Source of the DNA: Acidisarcina polymorpha
Lineage (GTDB): Bacteria > Acidobacteriota > Terriglobia > Terriglobales > Acidobacteriaceae
Direction of reading: 5' to 3'
NCBI RefSeq assembly: GCF_003330725.1
Contig: NZ_CP030840.1
Location: forward strand, 1,178,001-1,242,000
Length of the DNA: 64,000 nt
Notes under the pieces: model-generated
What the model was told of the DNA's origin: nothing
The model's input: the letters and a program-made list of their open reading frames with translations, nothing else
Database searches by the model: none
Shown: positions 20,682 to 64,000 of the stretch, in pieces
Numbering within the stretch: position 1 is the stretch's first letter
Layout: each line of letters opens with the position of its first letter
Made by a program: the position numbers and the translations under genes

Positions 20682-22109
20682 TTGAGGCCGGATTGGAAAC
20701 GTGACGCATTTGCCGGAACGCTCTCTGCCGGCACCATTTCCTTGTCGGATATCGTCTCTGCCCTGTCCTTTGCGCTCGATCTGACCGAGGATGCCCGGCC
20801 CGGCCATGCGGTGCGCAGCTGCCTGCTGGGCATGAGGATCGGCACCGAGCTGGGTCTGCCTGATCAACAGCTGTCGAGTCTCTATTACGCTCTATTACTC
20901 AAGGACATCGGGTGCAGCTGCAATGCCAATCTACTGTGCGAGATGGTTGGCGGAGATGATCGCCGGATCAAGCGCAGTGTCAAGCTTGAAGATTGGCGCT
21001 ACCCCTCCATTTCGGGCTTGAAGCTGCTATGGGAGCATGCCGGCGCGGGCGAAGCGATCTTGATGAAGTCGAAGCGGGTGCTCTCGCTGGCGATGCGGCG
21101 CCGGCGTTTCCGCAACGAACTGGTGCGGCTGCGCTGCGAGTGCGGGGTCAAGGTTGGCAGGAAGATCGGTCTTCCCGAGGCCAGCGTCGAGGCCATCAGC
21201 AGTCTCGACGAACATTGGGACGGGCGCGGCTATCCGGAGAGACTGCGCGGCGAGGCCATTCCGATCCTGGCGAGAATCATTAACCTCGCCCAGTGTCTCG
21301 ACCTTTTCAGCTCGGAGAACGGCACTGCGGCGGCGATGAGATCGATCTCCGCCCGCAGCGGGAGCTGGTTTGATCCAGAGCTGGTGCGGGTGGCGCGGGC
21401 GCTTTCCCAGCAGAATCGCCTCTGGGAATTTTATGGCTCGGGCATGGAGCGCAAGGTGGTTCTCGGATTGGAGCCGGGAATGATCGTTCGCGCCGACGAC
21501 GCTCAGATTGACAGGATTGCGGAAGCATTTGCCGACGTGGTTGATGCCAAATCACCCTTCACCTATGCTCATTTGCTCGGAGTGAGAGACGCGGCGATGC
21601 ATATTGCGCGCCAAATCGGGATGAGCGGCGAGCGTCTGAATCTAGTCTACCGGGCCTCCCTGTTGCACGATCTTGGCAAGCTGCGGGTGCCAAATTCCAT
21701 CCTGGACAAGCCTGGCAAGCTGGACTTCATGGAGTGGCAGGTGGTGAGGGAACACCCAGGACTGAGCGGCGAGATTCTGAGTCGCATTCGTCCATTTCAG
21801 GAGCTGGCGAGAGTGGTTGGCGAGCACCATGAGAAGCTCGATGGCAGCGGATACCCGGGTGGACTGAAGGGCGATCAGCTTTCGATCGAATCGCGAATCG
21901 TAGCCGTCGCCGACGTCTATGGGGCGCTGTTGGAAGACCGCTCCTACCGTCCCGGAAGAAGTCGGGCTGCGGCGCTGCTTAGCATGAAGGAATCGGTGCC
22001 CGGTAAGCTGGATGCTGAGTGCTATGAAGCCCTCGCTGCGTCGTCTGCCTCCGGTCTGCCTTTCGCGAGACGAGATTCTTCTCACGTTCATCGTGACATG
22101 TACGGATAA
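20682..22109 (+). CDS. Protein with two HD-GYP-like domains
   Basis: A 475-residue protein. The C-terminal half is a canonical HD-GYP domain: His329-Asp330 in LLHDLGKLRVP, EHPGLSGEIL, and GEHHEKLDGSGYPGGLKG with Gly390-Tyr391-Pro392. These residues are those used by cyclic-di-GMP phosphodiesterases. The N-terminal half repeats the fold in degenerate form: the first motif reads LLLKDIG, so the HD is Lys74-Asp75, while DEHWDGRGYPERLRG with Tyr184 is kept. The start is uncertain: the given TTG has no clear ribosome binding site and an ATG at 20621 lies in a different frame that stops at about 20704. Likely role: cyclic-dinucleotide hydrolysis or sensing. Confidence 0.8.
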   Translation: MRPDWKRDAFAGTLSAGTISLSDIVSALSFALDLTEDARPGHAVRSCLLGMRIGTELGLPDQQLSSLYYALLLKDIGCSCNANLLCEMVGGDDRRIKRSVKLEDWRYPSISGLKLLWEHAGAGEAILMKSKRVLSLAMRRRRFRNELVRLRCECGVKVGRKIGLPEASVEAISSLDEHWDGRGYPERLRGEAIPILARIINLAQCLDLFSSENGTAAAMRSISARSGSWFDPELVRVARALSQQNRLWEFYGSGMERKVVLGLEPGMIVRADDAQIDRIAEAFADVVDAKSPFTYAHLLGVRDAAMHIARQIGMSGERLNLVYRASLLHDLGKLRVPNSILDKPGKLDFMEWQVVREHPGLSGEILSRIRPFQELARVVGEHHEKLDGSGYPGGLKGDQLSIESRIVAVADVYGALLEDRSYRPGRSRAAALLSMKESVPGKLDAECYEALAASSASGLPFARRDSSHVHRDMYG

Positions 22110-24622: not shown

Positions 24623-25300
24623 TTAACTCTGGCTCTTCGACATGGCATCGACGCGCCCGCGCAGATCGAGGACCTCTTGCCGGAGAGCGGCCACCTGCTC
24701 TTCAAGGCTTTGGAGGCGGTGACTGCCGTCGATCTCTTCGGCTTTTGAAGGAGATCCGGCGCCGGAAGAAATGAAATCAGCGACATAGGTGTCGCCACAG
24801 AAGAGATGCATGGACCGCGCCTCTTTCGTGCCCGGCTGCCTGGGCAGTGTCCGAACCAGGGGAGGCTCGCGATCTATAAGCTTCTGGAGGGTCGCCTGGA
24901 CGTCGGAAAGTTCATCGAAGCTGTAGAGCCGGTCGCTTCGGCTGCGAAGTTCACCCGGTGTCTGCGGTCCCCGTAGTAGCAATACACAAAGGACGGCGAC
25001 TTCGCGACGCCCAAAGTTGAAGGCTTCGGAGAATCGATGTTCGTACTTGGTTACGCGGCTATCGAACCCGCGCACCGCTCCAGCCAGACCCTTATCATCC
25101 AGGCCGTGGAGGGCCTGCCGCACGGTATCTTCATCGAACTCCGTAACCGGGTCACGATTGGATTTCTGATTGCACGCGTTCAGCAGGGCGTTCATCGATA
25201 GAGGGTAGTAGTCAGGGGTCGTGATCTCTTTCTCAATCAACGCGCCGAGGACCCTGGCTTCTACGCCGGTCAACACGGGAACGGCTGAAGAGGAGGTCAC
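24623..25300 (-). CDS. yceH: YceH family protein (DUF480)
   Basis: A 225-residue protein with the YceH signature: an N-terminal winged-helix pair beginning LTGVEARVLGALIEKEITTPDYYPLS and a second RREVAVLCVLLLRGPQTPGELRSR, then a C-terminal coiled coil (LQSLEEQVAALRQEVLDLRG). The function of this family is not settled. The start is a GTG at 25300 overlapping the stop of the upstream gene (GTGA), suggesting translational coupling to the exported unknown protein. Confidence 0.9.
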   Translation of the reverse strand: MTSSSAVPVLTGVEARVLGALIEKEITTPDYYPLSMNALLNACNQKSNRDPVTEFDEDTVRQALHGLDDKGLAGAVRGFDSRVTKYEHRFSEAFNFGRREVAVLCVLLLRGPQTPGELRSRSDRLYSFDELSDVQATLQKLIDREPPLVRTLPRQPGTKEARSMHLFCGDTYVADFISSGAGSPSKAEEIDGSHRLQSLEEQVAALRQEVLDLRGRVDAMSKSQS

Positions 25301-26364
25301 TGCGGAGCCGTTCCCGAGGGATTGGCGTTCCGAGCGGCGGCAGCGGCCGCGTCTCGCTTAGCCTGGCGTTTCAGGTGATAGTGATGAGTCACGTCCGGCC
25401 AAAATTCGATTAGAGCAGCGCCGATCATTCCTTCCGCGGTCACAGTTGCGGCGCTCTGAAAGGTCTGACCGAGACCGCGGTCGGCTTCGGGGTAGTACAC
25501 ATTCGAAATGCCCCCTGCGATCAAGTTACCCATCACGTTTGCGTAGTTCGGGCCCCTCGTACCATCGTCTCGTCTGCAAACCACGGTCGTCGACATCGAG
25601 TACAGGAGGCGATGGGGGAACGAACCGTGTCCTAAGCGGAAATAGCGAGGGTCCTCATGCAGCACGACCGGGAGAACGGCGTTTCCCCAGAAGTTGCCAT
25701 CGGCAGTGTCGGCATAATTTGCCCCGAATCGCTTGGCATACCCCTGAATGCCTTGCCCGTAAGCCGCATGACTATCCTGAGCCTGTCCGATGCCCGCAGT
25801 GACGGCGGCAAACGCGAAGACATATGGGTCGGTCGTACTCTTAAACATGAGCTTGAATTTCTGACCAGGGGTAAGCGGAGGGACGCTGCCCTCGTAGACA
25901 GAATTAAAAGCCGGAATTACTCCCAGGATTCGCTGTTGCTCCTGCTTTTTCAGCTGCTCCTCTGCTTGTTTTTTTTGCTCTGGGGAGAGGGGCTCGGTTT
26001 GCACTGACGCCGCTGGCGCTGAAGACTGTGGGGGCGGCGGTGTGCTCGAGTTTGCATCTGGGGGAGCTTGCTGGCTGGCCGCCTGAGGCGAAATTCCGGA
26101 TAGGGAGAGATCCGCAAGCTGGATGCTTGCGGCCGGCTTAGGAGCGTCAGGCAGCGAGGAGTATTCCAGAGACGACTGAGCGAGCGCGATTGGAAGCGCC
26201 AGCCAGGCAGTCATAGCAAAAGCGGCTGAGCGCAACCACGCCGAGCGATAAAGATTCAGACTGCTTAAAAGTGCTAGAAGCGTAGTCAGCGGGCCGGAAT
26301 TGAGTTGTGGGATGCCGCGCGCGGTGCCCTCGTTCGAGAGCAGTGACCGCGAAGTAAATGACAA
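25297..26364 (-). CDS. Exported protein of unknown function
   Basis: A 355-residue protein that I cannot assign. A hydrophobic N-terminal region is followed at about residues 64-70 by a signal-like cleavage (PIALAQS), a Pro/Ser/Ala-rich stretch (residues ~75-120), a Lys/Gln/Glu-rich helix, and a compact C-terminal domain (QKFKLMFKSTTDPYVFAF, LPVVLHEDPRYFRLG, and TVTAEGMIGAALIEFWPD). The start is uncertain: a TTG at 26364 gives the longest form and an ATG at 26214 a shorter one with a minimal signal. Its 3' end overlaps yceH by 4 bases. Confidence 0.6.
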   Translation of the reverse strand: MSFTSRSLLSNEGTARGIPQLNSGPLTTLLALLSSLNLYRSAWLRSAAFAMTAWLALPIALAQSSLEYSSLPDAPKPAASIQLADLSLSGISPQAASQQAPPDANSSTPPPPQSSAPAASVQTEPLSPEQKKQAEEQLKKQEQQRILGVIPAFNSVYEGSVPPLTPGQKFKLMFKSTTDPYVFAFAAVTAGIGQAQDSHAAYGQGIQGYAKRFGANYADTADGNFWGNAVLPVVLHEDPRYFRLGHGSFPHRLLYSMSTTVVCRRDDGTRGPNYANVMGNLIAGGISNVYYPEADRGLGQTFQSAATVTAEGMIGAALIEFWPDVTHHYHLKRQAKRDAAAAAARNANPSGTAPQ

Positions 26365-26568: not shown

Positions 26569-28455
26569 CTAGAGTTTCGGTTTGATTCCCATCAACGTCT
26601 CGGCACTCAACACTTTGCCACCCTCCTGAATAATGTAGAGCTTGTTGACCTCGAGGTTTTCAAGAGAGTCTACTTGTCCCGATGGCCAGCGGACTTCGAC
26701 CAGGTCAACCCGCTTCGCCTGCTCCAAACCGAAGTGGAGCCTGAGATCGTTCTGCGAGTAATAACTGCCGCCGCTGCGGACTTCATCGATCTGCGACAAT
26801 GGCGCTGCAGTTTTGGGATCAGTCTTGGCGACGACCTTGATCCGGGCGCCGATGCCGGTGCGATTCGATTTAACACCCACGACCTTGATCTTGATCCAGC
26901 TTCGATTCCATTCTGAATCGCAGCGTAACAACTGTGGCAGCGAATTCACGCAGTTCACTGCGATATCGATGTCGCCATCGTTATCGTAGTCGCCGAAAGC
27001 GCAGCCACGGGCGGGCGCAGCGGCGGTGATGCCGGGGCCGGCCTTCTCGGTAACTTCCTCAAAGCGGTCGTTGCGGAGATTGCGATACAGGTACTTGTGC
27101 TCGGCATAGGGAGCTTCCGTCTTGGAACTGGACACCTCCGGATAGACATGGCCATTTGCCACGAAAATATCCAGCCAGCCGTCATTGTCCATGTCAAAGA
27201 ACCCGACGCCCCAGCCGAGCAGACGCGTATTGACCCCAAGCCCGGAGACATAGGTGTGGTCCTCAAAGGTGCCGTCACCGAGGTTCTTGTAAAGCGAGTC
27301 GGTATCGCCGGCGAAGTTTGTCTTGACCAGATCGAGATTGCCATCCCGGTTGTAGTCGCCGACGGCAACTCCCATGCCGGCTTGTGGCTTACCATCGGGA
27401 GAAAACGCGGCGCCGGCTTCGATGGCGACGTCCTGGAACGTCCCGTCTTTTTGATTGCGATAGAGAGTCGCCGCAGTCGAGTCGTTGGCCACATAGATAT
27501 CGGGCCAGCCGTCATTGTCGAGGTCGGCGACGGCGACGCTCAGCGCATAATTGCCGGCGGTGTTCCACATGCCGGCTTTTTCGGAGACATCGGAGAAAGT
27601 ACCGTCGCCGTTGTTGCGGTATAACAGGTTTTTGCCGCCGGGCAAGCCTGGCGGTCCGCAAGCGACCATGAGGCCTTTGTAGGTGCAGGGGCCGGACTCC
27701 GGCAACGGTGCAGTCTTCAGATCGAGATCGATATAGTTGCCAACGAAGAGATCGAGATGGCCATCGCGGTCGTAGTCGAGGAAAGCGCAACCCGAATTCC
27801 ACCGCAACTTCGACTGCGAGAGACCCGCCTTGATGGTGGTGTCCGTGAAGGTGCCGTCACCGTTGTTATGAAAGAGAGCGTTCTGCCCGTAGTAACTGAC
27901 GAAGAGATCGTCATGTCCGTCATTGTCGTAGTCGCCTACGCAGCAGCCCTGGCCCCACCCGCTGCGTTCGAGCCCGGCCTTTTTCGTGACATCGGTGAAG
28001 GTTCCATCGCGATTGTTTTTGAAGAGATGGCAGGTTGGCTCATGCCCGGCGGGAAAGCCCTCGAGCCTCCAGCCGTTCACGAGAAAGAGATCGAGCCAGC
28101 CGTCTTGATCGTAGTCGTAGAAGGCAAGACCGCAGCCGGTGGTTTCGAGGAGGTACTTATTCTTTCCCTCCCCACCGAAGATGGTCTTTGCATGCAGCCC
28201 TGACTGCATGGCGACATCGACAAAGCTGATGCCTAACGGAGTTCCCTGGATCGGCGATCGTGCCCCTGGCGGTGGCGGCATCGGTGTGGCCTGGTAGGCA
28301 GGTTCGGTGCCCATCGTCTTTGGCGAGGGCGACTGTTGCCCGGCGCGCGCCCAGGGAGGCGTAGCCAGCATCAGCACTTCGGCGAATGGAAGGACAAGGG
28401 CGGTGCGGCTGAATGAAGCAAGGAAGCGGCGGCGGTTCCAGTCGGAGGAAGACAT
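26569..28455 (-). CDS. CRTAC1/ASPIC-UnbV family FG-GAP repeat protein
   Basis: A 628-residue exported protein. The N-terminus (RRRFLASFSRTALVL) resembles a twin-arginine signal. The body holds many FG-GAP/VCBS repeats with Asp-rich calcium loops (FYDYDQDGWLDLFLVNGW, VGDYDNDGHDDLFVS, FLDYDRDGHLDLFVGN, VADLDNDGWPDIYVAN and more), which fold as a beta propeller. The C-terminal ASPIC/UnbV domain (EVRSGGSYYSQNDLRLHFGL then VDLVEVRWPSGQ) marks the CRTAC1 family; the biochemical role is unknown. The ATG at 28455 is chosen over an upstream extension. It follows the TPR and TonB genes on the same strand. Confidence 0.88.
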   Translation of the reverse strand: MSSSDWNRRRFLASFSRTALVLPFAEVLMLATPPWARAGQQSPSPKTMGTEPAYQATPMPPPPGARSPIQGTPLGISFVDVAMQSGLHAKTIFGGEGKNKYLLETTGCGLAFYDYDQDGWLDLFLVNGWRLEGFPAGHEPTCHLFKNNRDGTFTDVTKKAGLERSGWGQGCCVGDYDNDGHDDLFVSYYGQNALFHNNGDGTFTDTTIKAGLSQSKLRWNSGCAFLDYDRDGHLDLFVGNYIDLDLKTAPLPESGPCTYKGLMVACGPPGLPGGKNLLYRNNGDGTFSDVSEKAGMWNTAGNYALSVAVADLDNDGWPDIYVANDSTAATLYRNQKDGTFQDVAIEAGAAFSPDGKPQAGMGVAVGDYNRDGNLDLVKTNFAGDTDSLYKNLGDGTFEDHTYVSGLGVNTRLLGWGVGFFDMDNDGWLDIFVANGHVYPEVSSSKTEAPYAEHKYLYRNLRNDRFEEVTEKAGPGITAAAPARGCAFGDYDNDGDIDIAVNCVNSLPQLLRCDSEWNRSWIKIKVVGVKSNRTGIGARIKVVAKTDPKTAAPLSQIDEVRSGGSYYSQNDLRLHFGLEQAKRVDLVEVRWPSGQVDSLENLEVNKLYIIQEGGKVLSAETLMGIKPKL

Positions 28456-28491
28456 CAGATATTCGGAGATGGGACTCGATCTAAGTGCCTT

Positions 28492-28505
28492 CCAAGTATA
28501 CTTGG
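28492..28505. promoter_or_regulatory. Perfect 14-bp palindrome upstream of the CRTAC1 gene
   Basis: CCAAGTATACTTGG reads identically on both strands and lies 37-50 bases before the CRTAC1 start. Its centre contains TATACT, which would serve as a -10 element on the minus strand, so a repressor or activator bound here could control the gene. No matching copy was noticed elsewhere in the window. Candidate operator only. Confidence 0.35.
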
Positions 28506-28627
28506 GCAATTTTGGCAAGAGGCGAACGCGGGCAAGATAGACGACGGCTCCAGGGAAGTGCGATGTACACACGTCCTTGAAACGAGATAATCCAGGATGC
28601 AAAACTTCGATCAACCTTCTCTCATTG

Positions 28628-29737
28628 TCAATGAATACCTTCGAGCTTGGGGCCGGTAAGTGAGGGGGCGCTCGTGGCAGGAACAGCCGTGGCGGCGCCG
28701 GGAGACGAGTTGGGGAGCTTACCGTTTTGTATCTGGTCTGCTAACTGGGACTCTTTGTTTGCTTCCGCGGTTCTTCCGGTCCGGCGATATGCCTGGCCGA
28801 GCAGGTTGTGGGCCAGGTAGTTGCCGGGATCCATGGCGCGCGCTCGTTCGAGATAGAGAATGGCGAGAAGATAGTTCTGCTGATTCAACATTACTTTTCC
28901 CAGCAGAATGTAGGGACCGGTGGCGTTCGGCTCGAGCACGACTGCTCGACTGAGCGCTTCTTTGGCTCTCGCATCGTCGCCGGAGCGAACATAGGCATCG
29001 CCCAGCCGGTCGTAGAGATTTCCGTTAAGCGGATTCAGGTCGCGTTCGCGATTGAACTCGGCGATAGCTTCGGGAAATTGAGCGCGGGCGAGGGCCACTT
29101 CTCCAAGAAGCAGGTGAGCCAGCGGCAGGTCTGGCTGCAGAGCGACCGCCTTGCGAGCAAAATCCTCGGCAACCTTGGGATTTTCCTGCCGCAGCAGCAA
29201 GCGGGCGGCCAGGAGGTAGGCGGCGGCGGAATCGGGAGGAAATCCGTATTGCGCGGCGATGGCATGGCGCGAATCATCATAGCGGCCGACGGCGATGTAG
29301 CAGACGCCCAGCACATAATTCGGATCGACGTTCTGCGAGGGTATGGCCACGTGAGCTTTCTCGAGCAGCGGAATGGCCTCGGCTGGTTTGCCAAGGCCAT
29401 AGAGTGTGACTCCCAGCATCTGCATCGACTCGTCGTCGGAGGGATCCTGGGCTATTGCTTTGGCGTAGGCCATCTGAGCGGAGGGCAAGTCTCGTTGCTG
29501 ATAGTCAATTAAGCCGCGGAGGCGCTCTACTCCGGATGGTTCCGGATTCAGCTTCGCGAGAGCATCCAACTGGCGAAGCGCGTCTGCAGAGTGCCCGGCG
29601 TTGAACGCCTTCGTAGCCTCTGCCAGCATTGCGGCGGGCGAGGAGGGGGCGCTTCCCGCAGGCGTGTCTTGCTGCCCGGGTACTGCAGGGACCCAAATGG
29701 AGAGCGCTAAGAGGACAACTGGGAATCTACGACGCAT
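28628..29737 (-). CDS. Exported TPR repeat protein
   Basis: A 369-residue exported protein with a signal peptide (RRRFPVVLLALSIWVPAVPG). About seven to eight tetratricopeptide repeats cover residues ~40-320, for example AEATKAFNAGHSADALRQLD, AYAKAIAQDPSDDESMQMLG and AIAEFNRERDLNPLNGNLYD. The C-terminus is Pro/Ser-rich. TPR proteins of this kind are protein-interaction scaffolds; the partner is inferred to be the flanking CRTAC1 protein or TonB receptor, 170 and 80 bases away on the same strand. A TTG at 29752 is an alternative start. Confidence 0.85.
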   Translation of the reverse strand: MRRRFPVVLLALSIWVPAVPGQQDTPAGSAPSSPAAMLAEATKAFNAGHSADALRQLDALAKLNPEPSGVERLRGLIDYQQRDLPSAQMAYAKAIAQDPSDDESMQMLGVTLYGLGKPAEAIPLLEKAHVAIPSQNVDPNYVLGVCYIAVGRYDDSRHAIAAQYGFPPDSAAAYLLAARLLLRQENPKVAEDFARKAVALQPDLPLAHLLLGEVALARAQFPEAIAEFNRERDLNPLNGNLYDRLGDAYVRSGDDARAKEALSRAVVLEPNATGPYILLGKVMLNQQNYLLAILYLERARAMDPGNYLAHNLLGQAYRRTGRTAEANKESQLADQIQNGKLPNSSPGAATAVPATSAPSLTGPKLEGIH

Positions 29738-29819
29738 GAGAGCGATGTTCAAAGTCTAGCTGAGAAACAAAGAGGGGAAGCACGATGGCTCCCCCTCTTG
29801 TGAAACTGAGTACGGTTAT

Positions 29820-32800
29820 TTAGAACTGCACCCGGACCGAGAACTGCAACAGACGTGGTCCTTGTCCGAAATTCGCAGTGCTGCTGGTGACATAGACGTT
29901 GCCGGTTCCGGTATCGCCGCCATCGATTGCCTGGGTTGCTCCACCGCCGCCAAAGTTGCCGTTGATGTGATTGAAGGCGTTATATCCGTCAACTCTAAAT
30001 TGGGCGACGAGGCTCTCGCGAATTGGGAAATTTTTCTGCAGCGAGATATCCGTGTTGAAGAAGTGCGGGCCAAAGGCGGTGTTGCGGCCCCCATTTCCGA
30101 TCTGATCCAAACCAGGAGCAGTAAACCCTAAGTAGGACGCCGTAGTTAACGGAGTCGAGGTACCGCGGAACAAAGTACGGCGGTGGTTGACTGGATCAAA
30201 GCTGCTGAGGTTGATGGGCAGCCAGTTGCCGTGCCCGTTGACATAGCAAGGTGCATCGCCGCCATTGTTAACGGGGATAGAGGCGCTGCATTCGTTATAA
30301 GTCAGGGTGAATGGCAGACCACTCGACCAATTCAACACCGGACTAACTTGCCATCCACCGATGATTTCATTGGCCCACCCCGGGATATTCGATGCAAACT
30401 TTTGGTTCCGACCTATAGGCAGCTCGTAGACGCCATAAGCAATGAGTTGCTGCTGGCGAATATCGTTGTTTCTCCCGCGGACGGCGCGGCGATCCCAAGT
30501 CGCGTAATTGCTGTTGAAATCGATACCCTGCTGCCAGGAGTAATTGCCGGTGAAAGAGAGGCCTTTGGTGAACTGCTTATCCATGTTGATCTGCAGGGCA
30601 TTGTAGTGGCTGTCCTGATCGTCGCCATAGTAGCTGATTCCGTTGCTCCAACCGCAGGATCCGGCGGGAACCCCGGGCTGAGGTGTGTAGAGAGGGTCCT
30701 GACAGGCCGCGACACTTCCGCCATAGAATCTTCTCAGCAGGAGCGCATTGCCGGTCCCGCCGTTCGCGGCGATGCCAGTCGTCACGCTCGGATCATAGTG
30801 GAGTGGCTGCCCGGTAATACTGTACTGCGCGGGAAGCGTGATGCCGGGTTCGTTCGGGTTAGTATTGTTGCCGTCGCCGGCGCTGAGAGTATGTGTCCCT
30901 TTATTGCCGACATAGGCCACAGTGATTGAAAGGGTCGGGGTGACGGCATGCTGAACACTGAGGTTCCATGCATCGATCGTGGGCAGACGCAGACCGCTTG
31001 GTCTCGCCTTGGCGCTCACCTGATATCCGGGTGAAGGCAAGAGGCCGTCAGCTGGCACAGTCGGGAAAGCATTGGCGATCGGGCCGCCACCGGCAGGCTG
31101 ATTGGCCGGTTGAGCGCAACCCGGGGTGTCGGGACCGAGACAAAATGCGTACCCGGTCGCTCCCGAGGTGGTGGTGATGTCCTGGGCCGCAAGGACTGGC
31201 AGGTTTTGAGTGACTACGTGTCCGAAGATTGAGCCGAAGACTCCGAGGTCGAAGCTACGCCCGTAGCCCGACCGGATCACGGTCTTTGGATCCAACTGAT
31301 AGGCAACGCCGATGCGCGGGTTGAACGGATACGATGCGCGGCTCCAGCCCAGATTGCTGCCAATCTTGCCATAACCGGCGACTCGCAGGTAACCATCGGT
31401 CGTGCCGTTGTTGAAATTCAACAGCGCGCCATTGCCTTTCCCGTTGACGGCTTCGGGGAAGTATTCTTCAAGGCGCAGGCCCAGGTTGAGGGTGAGGTTG
31501 TTGGTGACTCGCCAGGAGTCTTCCCCGTAGAAGAAGAACCTCTTCTGGAACTCCTTAGCGTTGGTCGATGTACTGACGTAGCGGGTGTATTCGGTAGCCT
31601 GCCCGAGAACCAGGGCGCCGAACCCTAAGCCGCCTTGGGTGGCTGCATTTGGGTCGGAAGTCGGCCCGGTGCCGAAGTTGATAAGTCCGGTGCGGTCCGA
31701 ATCGCTCGGCACCCTAAGGTTGCGGGCATAGCGGAGATCGGCTCCAAACTTGACGGTATGGTTCTTGATGATCTTGGTCCAGTTGTTGACTACCTGGAAC
31801 TGGTCTTCGCGTTCCTCAAGCGGGCAGTTGCAGCGGTTCACGTTGAGACCAGCGCCGTATTGCGGACCCTGGTCCTGGCTATTGTTCGGGCCACCGGAAG
31901 AACCTACTTCCGTCACATTGAACCCTGGTGCGCCGCTCGTGATCGGCTGACCAGCGATGTTCATTCCAGGGATGCCGAGGTTGTCGGCAAAGGGGACGCC
32001 CTGGTTGTACTTCGAGTCGATGATGTTGTAACGGTAGTAGCCGAGGCGTACATCGGTGAGCAGCGTCGAGCTGATGGCGAAATCTGCACCGGCCGCGACG
32101 CTGTCGTTGGCTCCCGTTGAATTGCCACCGTAGCCGCCGATACCAAAGCCCGCGCCTCCGGCTGCGCCGAAGATGGTGGTACCGCTCAACGTGTCGGTGA
32201 ATCGGCTGAAGCGCTCGAAGAGGTGGATCTTTTCAGACAGCGTGAAGTCAACGCGCTCGTCCCAAGCGTTGCTGTTGAAGATGCCGGTGCCGCTGGCAGA
32301 ATAGTTGTTCTTCAAGCCATTGAAGCTTCCGGCCGAGTTAGGCGCGTAGGGCTGCAGAAGCTTGAGCAGACCCTGCGTCTGGGGCGAGATGAGAGCGGCG
32401 GGAATGACGTTGCCCGGATAAGGCGTTGGCGCGGTCAGCCCATTGGTCGCATTCGGCTGCTGGTAGACAATGCCTGCGCCAGTTGGAGTTACATTGGCTG
32501 CGTATTCGCTGAAATCGCACCCAGGAATGCCGCTCGCGCCGATGGTCTGGCCAAGACAAGTGCTGACCAAGAGCGCCGAGGGCACAGTCACTGTGTTCGA
32601 TGTGCCTACCTTCTGGCGAAGGCCCTGATAATCGCCGAAGAAGAAGAGCCTGTCCTTGATAACCGGACCGCCGATTGAGCCTCCAAACTGATTTTTCAAG
32701 CCGGCAGGAATCAATCCATCTGTACCCGGATGGGCTGCAGTCGGGAATTGGCTGTAGGGGTCGCGCGCCAGATTGGCATTGCTCTCGCGGTAATCGAAGG

Positions 32801-33578
32801 CGCTGCCATGAAAGCTGTTGGTACCGGATTTGGTCTGGGCAGTAACGATCGAAGAGACTGCCTTGCCGAATTCGGCGTCGAAATTTTGAGTGGTGATCTT
32901 AGTATCGGAGATAGCTTCGATGGGCGGGTTGATGACGATAATTCCCAGGATCGGATCCTGGTTGTCGGTACCGTCCAACTCGTAAGCGACGCCGCCGAAT
33001 GCCTGCCCATCGACTTGGATCTGCCGGCTCGCCTGGGGATTTTCATCCGCAGCGTGGCTCCAGCCGAGTGGCTGAGCGCCGGGCAACAAAAGTTGGATAT
33101 TGGTGAAGTTTCTATCTCCGACGGGAAGATCGCTAATCGTCTTTGAAGTGAAGATGGTCGAAACGTCGGCCTTGTCAGTCTTAAGTACCGGCACCGAATC
33201 CGCATTGACTTCCACGGTCGTGCTTTCGCCGCCGACGGTCAGCTTCACATCAACTTTAGGAGAAGTGTCGGCAAAAACCTGGATGCCCTTTGTCTCCGAG
33301 GTTTGGAAGCCCTGGAAAGTAACCTTGACATCGTATGTATCGGGAATCAGGTGCTCAACAGAATATTCGCCTGAGGAGCCGGACTGGGTGGTCACCGCAG
33401 TGCCTTTGGCCTCATCGGTAACGGTCACGGTTGCGCCGGGAATGGCTGCCCCCGTGTTGTCAGTCACTGATCCAAAGATCGACCCGAAAACCGCTTGTGC
33501 ATGGGAAGCGGTGGGAAGGCAAAACATACACAGCATGCCCAGGCATACCGCCAGAGCAGCAGAAAGTTTCTTTCGCAT
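29820..33578 (-). CDS. Oar-like TonB-dependent receptor with carboxypeptidase-regulatory domain
   Basis: A 1252-residue outer-membrane protein. The signal peptide (LSAALAVCLGMLCMFCLP, cleavage near SHAQA) is followed by a carboxypeptidase-regulatory-like domain (GSVTDNTGAAIPGATVTVTD), a TonB plug (ISDLPVGDRNFTNIQLLLPG) and a long beta-barrel ending in an aromatic-terminated strand (LLQFSVRVQF). Such proteins are the large Oar-like receptors abundant in acidobacteria, presumed importers of oligosaccharides or peptides. The ATG at 33578 has a GGGAG ribosome binding site 9 bases upstream on the minus strand, supporting it over 33605. Terminal barrel and plug are intact. The substrate is unknown. 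Confidence 0.92.
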   Translation of the reverse strand: MRKKLSAALAVCLGMLCMFCLPTASHAQAVFGSIFGSVTDNTGAAIPGATVTVTDEAKGTAVTTQSGSSGEYSVEHLIPDTYDVKVTFQGFQTSETKGIQVFADTSPKVDVKLTVGGESTTVEVNADSVPVLKTDKADVSTIFTSKTISDLPVGDRNFTNIQLLLPGAQPLGWSHAADENPQASRQIQVDGQAFGGVAYELDGTDNQDPILGIIVINPPIEAISDTKITTQNFDAEFGKAVSSIVTAQTKSGTNSFHGSAFDYRESNANLARDPYSQFPTAAHPGTDGLIPAGLKNQFGGSIGGPVIKDRLFFFGDYQGLRQKVGTSNTVTVPSALLVSTCLGQTIGASGIPGCDFSEYAANVTPTGAGIVYQQPNATNGLTAPTPYPGNVIPAALISPQTQGLLKLLQPYAPNSAGSFNGLKNNYSASGTGIFNSNAWDERVDFTLSEKIHLFERFSRFTDTLSGTTIFGAAGGAGFGIGGYGGNSTGANDSVAAGADFAISSTLLTDVRLGYYRYNIIDSKYNQGVPFADNLGIPGMNIAGQPITSGAPGFNVTEVGSSGGPNNSQDQGPQYGAGLNVNRCNCPLEEREDQFQVVNNWTKIIKNHTVKFGADLRYARNLRVPSDSDRTGLINFGTGPTSDPNAATQGGLGFGALVLGQATEYTRYVSTSTNAKEFQKRFFFYGEDSWRVTNNLTLNLGLRLEEYFPEAVNGKGNGALLNFNNGTTDGYLRVAGYGKIGSNLGWSRASYPFNPRIGVAYQLDPKTVIRSGYGRSFDLGVFGSIFGHVVTQNLPVLAAQDITTTSGATGYAFCLGPDTPGCAQPANQPAGGGPIANAFPTVPADGLLPSPGYQVSAKARPSGLRLPTIDAWNLSVQHAVTPTLSITVAYVGNKGTHTLSAGDGNNTNPNEPGITLPAQYSITGQPLHYDPSVTTGIAANGGTGNALLLRRFYGGSVAACQDPLYTPQPGVPAGSCGWSNGISYYGDDQDSHYNALQINMDKQFTKGLSFTGNYSWQQGIDFNSNYATWDRRAVRGRNNDIRQQQLIAYGVYELPIGRNQKFASNIPGWANEIIGGWQVSPVLNWSSGLPFTLTYNECSASIPVNNGGDAPCYVNGHGNWLPINLSSFDPVNHRRTLFRGTSTPLTTASYLGFTAPGLDQIGNGGRNTAFGPHFFNTDISLQKNFPIRESLVAQFRVDGYNAFNHINGNFGGGGATQAIDGGDTGTGNVYVTSSTANFGQGPRLLQFSVRVQF

Positions 33579-34382
33579 TTCACTAGTCTCCCGAAGGTTG
33601 TGCAACGTTACTTAATCTCTCGGCGCCGTGTATCCGGCATGTCGCGTACGACTTTTCGAGAGTGTCAAGCGTGGTCCTAAAACGTATTTCAGAAAATCAT
33701 ATTCGCCAGACCATCCTGCAAGACAACGTTCGGTCCACGAACAGCCTTATAGCAGTACTTCTGAACTTATGACGATTCCGCTGCGAACTATATTGAACCA
33801 ATCATCTAGCTGTCAAGGTTTACTAATACTGCATCTTGTTAAAGCCACCAAAACGGAGCCTCGAAGCATCGCTCACTATCCTCTAATTGCACACCGCTAT
33901 GTTTAGGACTACCGTGCGCGGCTGTCAAGCTGAATTGTGTACTTTACCTGCAGCTGTCGCCATAAAGGCACAAGAGGAGACTGCACGCTTTCAGCCGCTT
34001 CGTAACTACTTGTTTACTAAATCCATTTATGCACTCTCCAGGCGAGGCAATCTGTATAAATCCAATTCAATACTGCTTTTCAGTTCGCCACCATTTTCGC
34101 CATAAGTATTTCATCGCTGCCAGACTGCTTATTCTCCTGAGCATCAGCACTTCGGCGTATTCTGACGCTCCGGACCAGAGTTCGGCGATGCACTTCGATC
34201 TAGCACCCCCCTCGAGCAAGCACAATCTTCGATTTAGGGCCATTACGGTATGGCATCAACTGACGATGCACTCGGCGGTGAATATAGGATCCTGACTTTA
34301 CTCCGTTTACGATGGCTCGGCGGCGAGAGGGTGTGCCGGCATAACGAAATACCAAAAGCACGTTATGCTGAGAGGCGCAACG
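33579..34382. other. Long intergenic region between TonB receptor and cytochrome genes
   Basis: About 800 bases, noticeably more AT-rich than the flanking genes, with no coding frame showing family character. It holds the divergent promoters of the receptor and the cytochrome. On the minus strand a perfect -35 TTGACA occurs at 33663-33668, but the -10 at 17-18 spacing (CGACAT) is weak. No tRNA, terminator or clear repeat was seen. Confidence 0.6.
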
Positions 34383-35576
34383 ATGAAGTCAGTCGCCAAC
34401 CAATCTCTGGTGCTCGTGCTGCTGGCCGCAGCAGGGGTGCTTGCAGCTGCGCCGGTCCTGACAGCGGGCGCGCGCCCGCCGAACACGATCTCAGGCGGGG
34501 AGTCAACGCCTTCCCATCTAAAAGAGCCGGGTTGGTGGCCAACTAAGACGGACTCCAACCCTAAGGATTACGCGGGCAGCGAAGCTTGCGCGGGATGCCA
34601 TGAGCGGGAGGCTGGCACTCAACGAAACACCTCGATGGCATTGGCGGCGTCCAGGGTCATGGACACACAGGTGCTTCGCGCCACCGCAAACATCGTCCTT
34701 GATACACCGCCCTTTGTAACGACTATCTCGAGGGACAAGAAGGGCAGCACCTATACAACCACTCGGGGAGGCGAAGCGGTTGCTGGACAGATCCTTTGGG
34801 CCCTGGGCAACGGCACAATGGGACGGACCTTCATTCTGGAGTCGGGCGGCAGCCTATTTGAGAGCCAGCTGAGTTATTACACAATGATTCACGGTCTCGA
34901 CATCACTCCCGGCCATGTCCGTGCCCTACCTGGCGATTTGAATGGAGCTTTCGGTTTGCGGGTGAGTGTCGAAACAGCCCAGAAGTGTTTTGGCTGCCAT
35001 ACGACGATGTCCTCGGTGCGAAGACAGTTCGAACCGGGACACGCCATCCCTGGCGTCACATGCGAAGCCTGTCATGGGCCCGGTGCAAAACACGTAGCCG
35101 CCATGCGGCTAGGCAGGGTCGAGGAGGGACGGGCGGCGATCCTTAACCCCAGCAGCTTCGACCCGCAGAAACTGGTCGACTATTGCGGAGCTTGCCATCG
35201 TACGACTTTAGATGTCGCGGCGGCTAAGGATTATGTTCCGATCAATGTTCGCTTTCAGCCATATCGTCTGGAGAAGAGCCGCTGCTGGCGCGCACCTGAC
35301 CCGCGGATCGCTTGCACGGGATGTCACGACCCTCATGAAGAGGTGGTGCATTCGGCCAATGCTTACGATTCCAAGTGTCTCGGCTGTCATGCATTGAAAG
35401 CTCCCGCAGCCGCACCATCCTTCGATCACGCTGCGGGCAAGGCTGCAGCATGCACGGTGGGCTCCTCGCAATGCCCATCCTGCCATATGCCCAAATACAG
35501 CGTTCCGGCGATGCATGGCTCCTTCACCGACCATGACATCCGCATCGTTCGTCCTGGCGACCCGTACCCTCTGTAA
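34383..35576 (+). CDS. Seven-haem c-type cytochrome
   Basis: A 397-residue exported protein with seven CxxCH haem-attachment motifs at residues 69 (CAGCH), 202 (CFGCH), 227 (CEACH), 268 (CGACH), 311 (CTGCH), 332 (CLGCH) and 364 (CPSCH). The signal peptide is hydrophobic residues ~8-28. The spacing and clustered C-terminal haems resemble cytochrome c554-like/NapC-associated multihaem proteins, which pass electrons in the periplasm or at the outer membrane; the exact electron donors and acceptors are unknown. The ATG at 34383 follows a GAGAGG stretch. It is divergent from the TonB/TPR/CRTAC1 genes. Confidence 0.85.
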   Translation: MKSVANQSLVLVLLAAAGVLAAAPVLTAGARPPNTISGGESTPSHLKEPGWWPTKTDSNPKDYAGSEACAGCHEREAGTQRNTSMALAASRVMDTQVLRATANIVLDTPPFVTTISRDKKGSTYTTTRGGEAVAGQILWALGNGTMGRTFILESGGSLFESQLSYYTMIHGLDITPGHVRALPGDLNGAFGLRVSVETAQKCFGCHTTMSSVRRQFEPGHAIPGVTCEACHGPGAKHVAAMRLGRVEEGRAAILNPSSFDPQKLVDYCGACHRTTLDVAAAKDYVPINVRFQPYRLEKSRCWRAPDPRIACTGCHDPHEEVVHSANAYDSKCLGCHALKAPAAAPSFDHAAGKAAACTVGSSQCPSCHMPKYSVPAMHGSFTDHDIRIVRPGDPYPL

Positions 35577-61640: not shown

Positions 61641-64000
61641 ATGTTACGAAAGCAGCGGTTGTTTTTTGTTGTGTTCGCTGTTCTGTTTTCGACAGGAATT
61701 GTGTTAGCTCAGGAAAACGCTGAGATAACTGGAACAGTGACTGATAGTTCAGGCGCAGTGGTACCCGGCGCGACGGTCACCCTCACCTCCCCGCAAACCG
61801 GAGCGAATCATACCGGCACTTCGAACACCAGCGGCCTGTTCGATTTTCCCGGACTCGCGATCGGTACCTACACCCTCAATGTGACCGCATCTGGGTTTGA
61901 AGCCTACTCCAGACAAGGAATTGTGCTGAACGTCGGACAGACGCTGCGAGAGAATGTCAACCTTTCCGTCGGCGGCAGCAGCCAGACGGTGACCGTCCAG
62001 GCGAATGCGCTTCAAGTGCAGTCGGAAACGAACGAAGTGAGCACCGTAATCACCGGCAGGCAGATCGAGCAGCTCTCGACCAATGGCCGTAACGTGATCG
62101 CGCTGACTACCCTCGGAACCGGCGTGTCAAACACCAACCCGTCCTTCAATGGAGTCTCGGCTCAGGGCAGCACCTTTAACCTGAGCTTCAACGGATTGCG
62201 GCCAGACCATAACAATTGGTTGATCGATGGCGGCGAAGTCTATGATCGCGGCAGCGGCGGCAAGCTGGATGTCATGCCCTCTCCCGACATCATCGCTGAA
62301 TTCAACGTACTCTCCAGCAACTATGCTCCGGACTACGGAATCTCCTCGGGTGGCACCATCAGCATGGCGATCAAGTCAGGCACCCATGACTTCCACGGCG
62401 GTCTGTGGGAGTTCAACCGCAACGACGCCTACGACGCCGGTTACTACTTTTTTAAGCAGAACAACCAGCCCAGCCCTGAGCTGCGCCTAAACATCTATGG
62501 CGGCGACATCAATGGACCGGTCTGGATTCCGGGCCTCTACAACCGGGACCGCAAGAAGACCTTCTTCTTCTGGAGCGAGGAGTGGCGCAAGTTTATTCAG
62601 GGCGCAAATCCGGCGCTGACCAACACTGTGCCGACCAACGACTTTCCCACAGCTGGACAGAATCTTGTATATACGCCAATCGGCGGAGGCGCCGCGCCGG
62701 TCGTCCCGACGACCACCGATCCAGCGAAGCTGGCCCAATATGCGCTGTATGGGCTAACTCCAGGCCAGCCGTTTCCAAACAACACGATTCCGGCAGGCTT
62801 GCTTGACGCCAATGCGGTCTTGTTTATGGGAACCGGAGCGATTCCTCAGCCAAACGCTCCGAACAGCCAGTTCATTTCTTCACCGAAGCAGCCGACCGAT
62901 GTTCGCGAGGACGTGGTTCGCATCGACCACAACATCAACGACAAGTACCACCTGATGGGCCACTGGATCCACGATCAGATGTCACAGACGATCTTCCCGA
63001 CCCAGTGGAGCGGAGACAGCTACACGACCGTTGGAAACGTTTTTGCCAATCCCTCCTGGGCAGCGGTGGTCAATCTCAGCCAGACGCTTTCGCCGAGCCT
63101 GTTGAACGAGACAGCGTTCAATGTAAACGGCAATACCATCGACATCACACCGGCCGGCATCTATCAGCAGCCAGCAGGCTGGAACGCGACCGGCTTCTTC
63201 TCCGGAAACAATGCGCTGAACCGTCTTCCCCAGATTGCATTCTCGGGCGGCGCGCTCGGCACGACGTACACCACCAACTACTGGCCGTGGCACAACTCCT
63301 TCGTGGATTATCAGATTCGTGACGACCTATCCTTGAACAAGGGCCGCCATGGCATGAAGTTCGGATTCTCGTACATGCTCATGCAGAAGAATCAGCAGCA
63401 ACAGGCTGATACGCAAGGCGACTATACCTTCAGCAATTCGGCCTTCTCTGGCGACGCCTACGTTAACTTCCTCTTGGGTTTTGCGAGCAGCTTCCAACAG
63501 CTTCAGTCGTTGCAGACAGCGCACTGGATCAACAACACCTATTCTGGCTACGCTCTAGACAACTGGCATATCATGCCAAGGCTTACCCTCAACCTGGGCA
63601 TCCGCTACGATGCGCTGCCGCATACCTTTGAGAAGAACAACCGGACGGCAAACTTCGTCCCCGGCGACTTCAACCCAGCCAACGCTCAAATTCCTGATGT
63701 GAATACTGGATCCTTAAATCCAGCAGGACCAGGCTTCGCCCAACCGGCAGGCGCACCCGTGCCCTTCTATCTGAATGGCGTGGAACTGCCTGGCGTTAAC
63801 GGATTCCCAAGAGGCATCGTGCAGAGCTTCTGGGGCACAGTACAACCCCGTGTAGGCTTTGCCTATGATCTCTTCGGAACCGGAAAGACGGTTCTTCGGA
63901 GTGGCTTCGGGATGTTCTTCGAGCGCGTCCAAGGCAACGATATCTACGGCACCGACGTCAATCCGCCCTGGGCATACCAGCCACAAGCGAGCAACGTCTA
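61641..64000 (+). CDS. Oar-like TonB-dependent receptor, N-terminal part (cut by window edge)
   Basis: The frame is open from the ATG at 61641 to the right edge, about 786 codons. GGAG is 9 bases before the ATG. Signal peptide: LFFVVFAVLFSTGIVLAQ. A carboxypeptidase-regulatory-like domain (GTVTDSSGAVVPGATVTLTS) is followed by a TonB plug (IEQLSTNGRNVIALTTLGTG) and the start of a large barrel. Another acidobacterial Oar-like receptor, not the same locus as the one at 29.8-33.6 kb; only about 30-40% of the barrel can be judged. Confidence 0.9.
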   Translation, partial: MLRKQRLFFVVFAVLFSTGIVLAQENAEITGTVTDSSGAVVPGATVTLTSPQTGANHTGTSNTSGLFDFPGLAIGTYTLNVTASGFEAYSRQGIVLNVGQTLRENVNLSVGGSSQTVTVQANALQVQSETNEVSTVITGRQIEQLSTNGRNVIALTTLGTGVSNTNPSFNGVSAQGSTFNLSFNGLRPDHNNWLIDGGEVYDRGSGGKLDVMPSPDIIAEFNVLSSNYAPDYGISSGGTISMAIKSGTHDFHGGLWEFNRNDAYDAGYYFFKQNNQPSPELRLNIYGGDINGPVWIPGLYNRDRKKTFFFWSEEWRKFIQGANPALTNTVPTNDFPTAGQNLVYTPIGGGAAPVVPTTTDPAKLAQYALYGLTPGQPFPNNTIPAGLLDANAVLFMGTGAIPQPNAPNSQFISSPKQPTDVREDVVRIDHNINDKYHLMGHWIHDQMSQTIFPTQWSGDSYTTVGNVFANPSWAAVVNLSQTLSPSLLNETAFNVNGNTIDITPAGIYQQPAGWNATGFFSGNNALNRLPQIAFSGGALGTTYTTNYWPWHNSFVDYQIRDDLSLNKGRHGMKFGFSYMLMQKNQQQQADTQGDYTFSNSAFSGDAYVNFLLGFASSFQQLQSLQTAHWINNTYSGYALDNWHIMPRLTLNLGIRYDALPHTFEKNNRTANFVPGDFNPANAQIPDVNTGSLNPAGPGFAQPAGAPVPFYLNGVELPGVNGFPRGIVQSFWGTVQPRVGFAYDLFGTGKTVLRSGFGMFFERVQGNDIYGTDVNPPWAYQPQASNV

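Follow-up and report, generated by a model that had tools for sequence, protein, structure and literature searches.

A conserved set of TonB-type barrel, TPR and CRTAC1 genes adjoins a seven-haem cytochrome gene in Acidisarcina polymorpha

In a 64,000-nucleotide stretch of the genome of the soil acidobacterium Acidisarcina polymorpha SBC82 (the window), the genes for an Oar-like TonB-type barrel (TBDT), an exported TPR protein and a CRTAC1-type protein are co-directional, and a gene for a seven-haem cytochrome c (c7) is divergent from them. The triplet is conserved in relatives, and by gene kind, the association of c7 with TBDT, TPR and CRTAC1 is no accident. We suggest, with not quite even confidence, that the triplet captures and takes up a ligand as a TonB-type module of the outer membrane and that c7 has a redox role. 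The barrel would import the ligand, and two exported proteins would bind or present it: the TPR protein and the CRTAC1 propeller, which probably binds Ca2+. The ligand would most likely be a carbohydrate or glycoconjugate, c7 would most likely supply or remove the electrons of a redox step that involves the ligand or a partner enzyme, and the genes may be co-expressed. Such a module would work like the SusC/SusD loci of Bacteroidota, from unrelated parts. More doubtful is a single redox-coupled TonB-dependent uptake complex of c7 (in some loci, a haem-TPR fusion), barrel, TPR adaptor and Tat-exported CRTAC1 propeller, in which electron transfer at the surface or in the periplasm would be part of the uptake or breakdown of a complex carbohydrate or glycoconjugate.

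All four genes lie where the initial annotation had placed them, and family matches agree with the kinds of protein that it named. Some corrections are needed. The frame of the CRTAC1 gene (26569..28455, minus strand), which is open to 28614, had been over-extended, and the likely start is Met54 (base 28455), which opens a twin-arginine pattern. This Tat-like signal (MSSSDWNRRRFLASFSRTALVLPF...; 28332..28455, minus strand, end approximate) was recognized with a loose pattern and by eye, not with a trained predictor; the pattern was found in 34 of 86 CRTAC1 proteins, and the signal is also present in close orthologues. The protein has FG-GAP repeats (FG-GAP_3 in Pfam, E = 2.9e-58), seven motifs of the DxDxDG type, and a C-terminal ASPIC/UnbV domain (UnbV_ASPIC, 1e-20; ORF residues 587-660; 26635..26856, minus strand). 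Its sole match among PDB sequences at E = 0.01 was human CRTAC1 (9etn, 3.7e-21). The TPR gene (28628..29752, minus strand, likely start 29737) encodes about nine 34-residue repeats (top TPR family, 1e-28) behind what looks by eye like a Sec-type signal. The barrel (29820..33605, minus strand, likely start 33578; domains CarboxypepD_reg and OMP_b-brl_4) belongs to the Oar-like family PF25183 (4.3e-170; 568.4 bits, with a cut-off of 30) and has an N-terminal CarboxypepD_reg domain (2.8e-19; 69.7 bits, with a cut-off of 32.3). One stretch looks by eye like a plug, but no match to a Pfam plug family reached E = 0.01. The c7 gene (34365..35576, plus strand), also with a Sec-type signal by eye, is separated from the barrel by a divergent region (33606..34364; 0.76-0.79 kb) that is richer in AT (about 49% GC versus 58% in the window). 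A search of this region for operator-like palindromes gave no inverted repeat at the chosen settings, and there was no sign of a decayed LacI gene (best tblastn E = 0.27).

As in SusC/SusD loci, a TonB-type barrel with a carboxypeptidase-regulatory N-terminal domain adjoins an exported helical-repeat protein and another exported, putative binding protein, and relatives of the window's locus have sugar-type regulators and some glycoside hydrolases nearby. SusD itself has a TPR-like fold. However, no NCBIfam family, SusC included, matched the barrel at E = 0.01; the helical protein matched no SusD family, only TPR and other repeat models, and by eye it lacks a lipobox. Further additions at the window's locus are a CRTAC1 propeller of the Tat type and a multihaem cytochrome. 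Parts of this arrangement are known elsewhere, as far as excerpts of the papers describe it. In freshwater Verrucomicrobia, an outer-membrane barrel also adjoins a multihaem cytochrome, but these are a predicted porin and an eight-haem cytochrome (PMC5615132), whereas the barrel of the window is of the TonB type (PF25183) and is accompanied by TPR and CRTAC1. CRTAC1 genes lie beside multihaem genes, some with c554-type domains, in clusters of hydrazine synthase (HZS) homologues, but these clusters have HZS-type subunits and the word TonB is absent from the main text (PMC12758564). In "Ca. Solibacter", the ASPIC/UnbV and TonB families each form groups of paralogues, but the excerpts give them as separate groups, without linking the families (PMC3174227). 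Among open-licence papers in PubMed Central, we found no assigned role for this gene combination and no coupling of uptake to electron transfer.

A close orthologue of the TBDT is present in 10 of 40 relatives. A TPR relative lies within 2.2 kb of it in all 10, and a CRTAC1 gene lies within 4 kb in 8. Because this co-occurrence is real, the main objection foreseen by the initial annotation, that the neighbourhood might not be conserved outside this strain, fails for the triplet. A whole-genome search found c7 near the orthologous TBDT in none of the 10 relatives, most of whose genomes are drafts; thus, the exact set of four genes was seen only in this strain. (The absence of c7 rests on this whole-genome search: the neighbourhoods at L102, L104, L105, L108 and L109 extend less than 3 kb past the TBDT on one side.) In nine relatives, the contig with the TBDT holds no c7 homologue, and the single-contig genome, G017, has a weak one, far away. 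G017 keeps the TBDT-TPR pair, with its CRTAC1 orthologue at another place in the genome. The CRTAC1 gene nearest to the TBDT is, in most relatives, a paralogue (51-55% identity), with the closest orthologue just past it, and the order of the genes, which had been taken as a sign of one system, is not conserved. CRTAC1 and TPR are in one ORF at L002, L015 and, weakly, L013 (by profile).

We then considered c7 loci across Acidobacteriota, taking the best 80 profile matches (79 usable), which do not thereby show that c7 is confined to this phylum. Full 8-kb flanks were available for only 32 of the 79 loci, including near-copies (L173 and L178) and two loci on a shared contig (L131 and L144). Among these 32 loci from the best 80 matches, 18 have both TBDT and TPR within 8 kb, versus 1 of 37 random regions, and 11 have CRTAC1 as well, versus 0 of 37. 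The random regions (40, some overlapping: L223 with L224, and L229-L231) came from the genomes of 10 relatives, not from most genomes of the 80 c7 loci; three that held c7 were dropped, and with them the counts are 3 of 40 for TBDT with TPR and 0 of 40 for all three. The TPR counts are lower bounds because our profile, made from the window's own repeats, misses TPRs: for example, 14 of 105 unlabelled c7 neighbours match TPR families in Pfam. A TBDT is absent within 5 kb at 42 of the 79 loci from the best 80 matches, some of them on short contigs. Haem and TPR families occur in one protein at L001, L010, L087 and, weakly, L243. The initial annotation gave the co-occurrence as common in acidobacteria, and both the triplet in relatives and this statistical association of all four gene kinds show that it is real.

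The genome of A. polymorpha itself gives a similar picture. On the chromosome, which has 62 PF25183 barrels, 6 of 13 CRTAC1 clusters (16 genes of at least 300 bits) lie within 8 kb of a barrel (expected 2.1, p = 0.006-0.011), as do all 5 of the stronger c7-like cytochromes (against 0.8 expected; circular shift gave p = 0.00135 and independent placement 5e-5). Two very weak c7 hits (24.4 and 21.4 bits), outside this test, lie by position roughly 42 and 30 kb away from any barrel. CRTAC1 lies within 3.5 kb of 7 of the genome's 65 barrels, and TPR accompanies 6 of these 7, versus 11 of the other 58 (Fisher p = 9e-4; this tally omits a TPR match found at L007). CRTAC1 has 31 matches in the genome, of which 18 span most of the query's length. 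With Oar-like barrels and CRTAC1-type proteins so numerous, the role of one module would inform many genes of a widespread soil phylum, and if c7 takes part, nutrient uptake at the outer membrane would be tied to electron transfer.

In this strain, could c7 be a mere neighbour, a separate exported electron carrier that came to lie next to an uptake triplet? We consider this unlikely, though it deserves to be taken seriously. Consistent with it, orthologous TBDTs lack a nearby c7 in all 10 relatives, and c7 and the triplet are transcribed separately, in divergent directions. Also, the window's TBDT groups with TBDTs that lack c7 (the nearest, at L102, is 67% identical); the 14 TBDTs from c7 loci that match it best share only 24-28% identity with it. 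Against it are the association by gene kind among the best 80 c7 matches, the five c7-like genes close to barrels, and a FastTree tree of 57 barrels (37 adjacent to c7 and 20 not), on which adjacency to c7 requires 11 changes by gain or loss, of which starred branches force at least 8; the program flagged meeting long branches. The label also clusters on this tree (16.7 changes on average when shuffled, and 0 of 500 shuffles were as low). Given these changes, the pairing of barrel and c7 has changed repeatedly, and we rejected a single barrel lineage paired with c7. The best reading is that acidobacteria repeatedly added multihaem proteins to such modules, c7 being one of several.

The seven CxxCH motifs of c7 are at residues 75, 208, 233, 274, 317, 338 and 370, and its family matches are of the c3/c554 type (best 3.1e-8). 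As to an open distal haem site, the residues outside the motifs that are conserved at 90% or more are H243, H324, H384, H390, M91 and M375, so that for seven haems there are only four such histidines; the model is haem-free and does not show the ligands. A first AF2 model from 12 sequences was poor (pLDDT 57) and was discarded; the model from 76 sequences has a pLDDT of 87.3. By VIA, it aligns with OcwA (Z = 14.1 over 273 residues), the S-layer undecahaem cytochrome OmhA (6qvm; Z = 13.0 over 252 residues), and MccA (Z = 10.1), over 252-274 residues in all at 18-22% identity, which points to a shared fold. Foldseek gave E = 2e-4, yet a TM score of only about 0.3. These proteins have nine (OcwA), eleven (OmhA) and eight (MccA) haems, unlike c7, which also has a beta-rich insert (residues 95-200; 34647..34964, plus strand) between haems 1 and 2. 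We take c7 to be a probably exported multihaem protein of the OcwA/MccA/c554 superfamily.

This likeness speaks for a respiratory explanation, in which c7 would be a surface terminal reductase for extracellular or humic acceptors and the other proteins would dock c7 or the acceptor: OcwA has been proposed, in the excerpts available, as a cell-surface terminal reductase (PMC6703420). The strain also has three molybdopterin oxidoreductases of unknown specificity that, its describers proposed, might serve anaerobic respiration. However, in the available parts of that description, they saw no strictly anaerobic growth and found no pathways for reducing Fe(III), nitrate or nitrite (PMC6252331). Decahaem MtrA-like models score far under their cut-offs (38.5 versus 325 bits and 34.8 versus 192.2 bits), and none of the eight proteins scanned from the window is an MtrB-type porin. 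Thus, we think respiration improbable, and the electron transfer to an extracellular acceptor that the initial annotation raised is unproven. Its suggestions of TPR as an assembly factor and of the propeller as a binder are likewise guesses.

Regulators bear on the ligand class in the uptake reading. We scanned the 105 unlabelled proteins nearest to c7 (66 loci, within 1.2 kb; the pool was 258 within 4.5 kb, counted before dropping those cut by contig ends) and, as a control, 105 of 394 random proteins. Among the neighbours from the best 80 c7 matches, 8 of 105 have a LacI-type sugar-binding domain and 14 are the further TPR proteins. The 25 commonest families of the random 105 include neither. 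Because the lists give 25 families only, single random LacI cases may be hidden, and p is 0.003-0.018 for 0 or 1 such case. In 6 of 13 divergent loci from the best 80 matches, LacI separates TBDT from c7, and LacI-type genes lie within 3.5 kb of 12 of the 65 barrels in this genome. Hydrolases are less telling: near c7, among the best 80 matches, there are three GH31 and two GH29, and since the random set also holds three (one each of GH92, GH35 and glucoamylase), we dropped a claim of enrichment. No glycoside hydrolase, other carbohydrate enzyme or sugar regulator is among the eight window proteins scanned.

The regulators also bear on whether c7 reduces a chelated metal that the TBDT imports, alone or as the chelate. 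Metal chelates are classic imports of TonB-type receptors and a redox protein beside one is suggestive, but the regulators that recur near c7 are LacI-type and the 25 most frequent Pfam families among the c7 neighbours include no metal regulator (both for the best 80 matches), which leaves this explanation a small chance. Import itself is an assumption because the Oar protein of Myxococcus is tied to protease secretion, and assembly roles are frequent for TPR and propeller proteins, but with sugar-type regulators near barrels and c7, it is very improbable that the barrel serves to export or display proteins together with partners of the TPR and propeller kinds.

The closest paralogue of the window's CRTAC1 in its own genome (74%), at L001, is in line with a TPR gene and a haem-TPR fusion. 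At six related CRTAC1 loci from six genera (L104-L109), a homologous protein of about 890 residues adjoins a Tat-type CRTAC1, and the two that we scanned singly both match the glycoside hydrolase family PF22422. A separate scan of 86 of 87 proteins (without the one at 20682-22109 of the window) gave six PF22422 matches, which are probably copies of one orthologous gene. L108 also has a GH13 enzyme, and the GntR regulator found at L109 contains a sugar-binding domain of the LacI type.

All four genes named in the initial annotation are real, and their coordinates hold. On the minus strand, and in the order of transcription, they are an Oar-like TonB-type barrel (PF25183, hereafter TBDT; 29820-33605), an exported TPR protein (28628-29752), and CRTAC1, an FG-GAP and ASPIC/UnbV propeller protein (26569-28614, with a likely start at 28455). 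A cytochrome with seven CxxCH motifs (c7) is divergent from them, on the plus strand (34365-35576). The barrel and TPR genes are 67 bases apart, and the TPR gene is 13 bases from the longest frame of CRTAC1, or 172 bases from its likely start. CRTAC1 begins with a twin-arginine pattern, MSSSDWNRRRFLASFSRTALVLPF, which is also present in the close orthologues at L101-L109 and in the gene at L001 (L-numbers denote single loci from this genome or others). The surrounding proteins comprise DUF480, CxxCxxCC, an amino-acid permease, and one protein without an assignment, and RecQ was recognized by eye. Downstream of the triplet and on the same strand is a 355-residue ORF (25297-26364); searches of Pfam and NCBIfam at E 0.01 gave no matches for it.

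The initial annotation described co-occurrence of the three genes as common in acidobacteria and read their order as a sign of one surface system. The co-occurrence is maintained among relatives, but order and strand differ between loci. Ten of 40 related genomes (G002, G004, G005, G011, G013, G014, G016, G017, G019, and G028) contain a match to the TBDT with an E value no higher than 1e-190. All 10 also carry a match to the TPR protein (E no higher than 1e-40) no more than about 2.2 kb from the TBDT, and in 8 of them a CRTAC1 match is found at a distance of at most 4 kb. The CRTAC1 near the TBDT is a close orthologue in G019 (72%) and G028 (63%); in G004, G005, G011, G013, and G014, the nearer copy is a 51-55% paralogue and the close orthologue (63-67%) adjoins; in G016, it is at 51%. 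The orthologue in G017 (a single contig) is located away from the TBDT, and none was found near the TBDT of G002 in the 9 of 11.5 kb that were fetched. By whole-genome search, c7 homologues are absent from the TBDT's contig in nine of the 10 relatives; those of G017 are weak only and far from the TBDT.

Matches to c7 (E 1e-3) occur in 23 of 41 genomes, A. polymorpha included, and many are weak. In a separate scan, the best 80 c7 loci among the matches listed are all from Acidobacteriota, judged by record title. We compared the 32 loci that have full 8-kb flanks to 37 random c7-free regions. Within 8 kb, a TBDT was present at 21 c7 loci versus 8 random regions, TPR at 22 versus 5, CRTAC1 at 15 versus 4, TBDT with TPR at 18 versus 1 (Fisher 4e-7), and all three at 11 versus 0 (Fisher 7e-5). 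The core association of these kinds of genes is statistically real across Acidobacteriota. In 37 of 79 loci (from the best 80 listed), a TBDT lies within 5 kb of c7: 13 are divergent, as in the window (6 of these with a LacI-type gene in between), 13 are codirectional with the TBDT upstream, 7 have the TBDT downstream, and 4 are convergent. The c7-adjacent TBDTs are clustered on the tree, yet they represent more than one lineage, so the pairing has changed repeatedly; in A. polymorpha, it looks local. At L131, L133, L161, L166, and L168, a LacI-type gene is directly upstream of c7 and both are divergent from the TBDT; at the first four, TPR and CRTAC1 also lie behind the TBDT, so the arrangement is that of the window with a sugar-type regulator added.

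Fusions also tie these families together. L001 (3995-10188) encodes the closest paralogue of the window's CRTAC1 in the A. polymorpha genome (74%). In line with it are a TPR gene and a fusion gene, whose product combines five CxxCH motifs and c554/MtrC-like domains with an array of TPR repeats at the C terminus. At L010 (6843-12911), a similar five-haem-TPR gene adjoins CRTAC1, and a divergent TPR gene has 53% identity to its counterpart in the window. At L087 and, weakly, at L243, seven-haem genes show TPR matches. By profile label only, CRTAC1 and TPR share an ORF at L002, L015, (weakly) L013, L195, and L230, as do c7 and TPR at L164.

The A. polymorpha genome contains 65 PF25183 barrels (66 rows, as one is split in two) and 31 matches to CRTAC1, of which 18, including itself, cover most of its length. 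Within 3.5 kb of the barrels, we found TPR at 17, a LacI-type gene at 12, CRTAC1 at 7, TPR with CRTAC1 at 6, a multihaem gene at 3, and none of these kinds at 39. TPR accompanies CRTAC1: it is present at 6 of the 7 barrels with CRTAC1 versus 11 of the 58 others (Fisher P = 9e-4). Only the window's barrel has TPR, CRTAC1, and a multihaem gene all within that distance. TBDT-TPR pairs also occur at L244 and L246; the latter continues the window's end (62370-64000 of the window, 4543-9462 of L246) and has another PF25183 barrel that is followed immediately by a TPR gene of 401 residues.

What might be taken up? Of the unlabelled proteins, we took the 105 closest to c7: a LacI-type sugar-binding domain is found in 8 (in 6 together with the HTH), and another 14 are additional TPR proteins; neither family is among the 25 commonest in 105 random proteins. 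The 105 neighbors also include GH31 (three) and GH29 (two), and GH16, GH27-type, and GH31 genes near c7 were confirmed one by one, but GH92, GH35, and glucoamylase each occur once in the random set, and clear enrichment of hydrolases is thus not seen. Of 86 proteins near CRTAC1 loci, 6 match PF22422 and 3 match the alpha-amylase family. At L104-L109, from six genera, a homologous protein of ~890 residues adjoins the Tat-type CRTAC1, and both copies scanned singly match PF22422. L108 also has GH13, and L109 has a GntR regulator whose sugar-binding domain is of the LacI type. Among the proteins scanned around the window's locus, there was neither the ~890-residue protein nor any other of these sugar-related genes. 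Our best reading, offered tentatively, is that these genes form an uptake module akin to SusCD but built of unrelated parts; its substrates would probably be carbohydrates, and multihaem cytochromes would have been coupled to such modules repeatedly. When tested, the window's locus lacked defining features of SusC/SusD, the polysaccharide utilization loci of Bacteroidota, and c7 lacked defining features of the OcwA family; therefore, we do not claim membership in either.

The initial annotation had also suggested electron transfer. The structural argument for this, from the fold of c7, stays, but the idea is without physiological support in A. polymorpha, an aerobe. A c7 model from 76 sequences (pLDDT 87.3, pTM 0.83) resembles three multihaem cytochromes in VIA comparisons: OcwA (Z 14.1, 273 residues), the S-layer undecahaem cytochrome 6qvm (Z 13.0, 252 residues), and MccA (Z 10.1, 274 residues); further, unrelated structures reached Z 7 or lower. 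Sequence-profile matches in PDB included 6i5b (OcwA, 3.3e-10), 6r2q (an MtrCAB complex, 4.5e-10), and c554 (3.9e-5). Since the Foldseek TM is only about 0.3, c7 has a common core with OcwA/MccA-type proteins and is not the same protein. Outside the motifs, four histidines and two methionines are at least 90% conserved, against seven haems; this number would permit an open or Met-bound haem, as described for OcwA (PMC6703420).

L088 (9167-10420) has a second c7-type gene of its genome, beside TPR and with a TBDT nearby; it has six in-frame CxxCH motifs, and its C-terminal part matches in a different frame, so a frameshift is possible. VWFA-type proteins recur near c7 (for instance at L133, L163, L169, and L187): VWFA profiles match at 17 of the best 80 c7 loci listed versus 3 of 40 regions chosen at random, and c7 is present in one of these 3. 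TIGR03436 matches 5 of the 105 nearest neighbors of c7.
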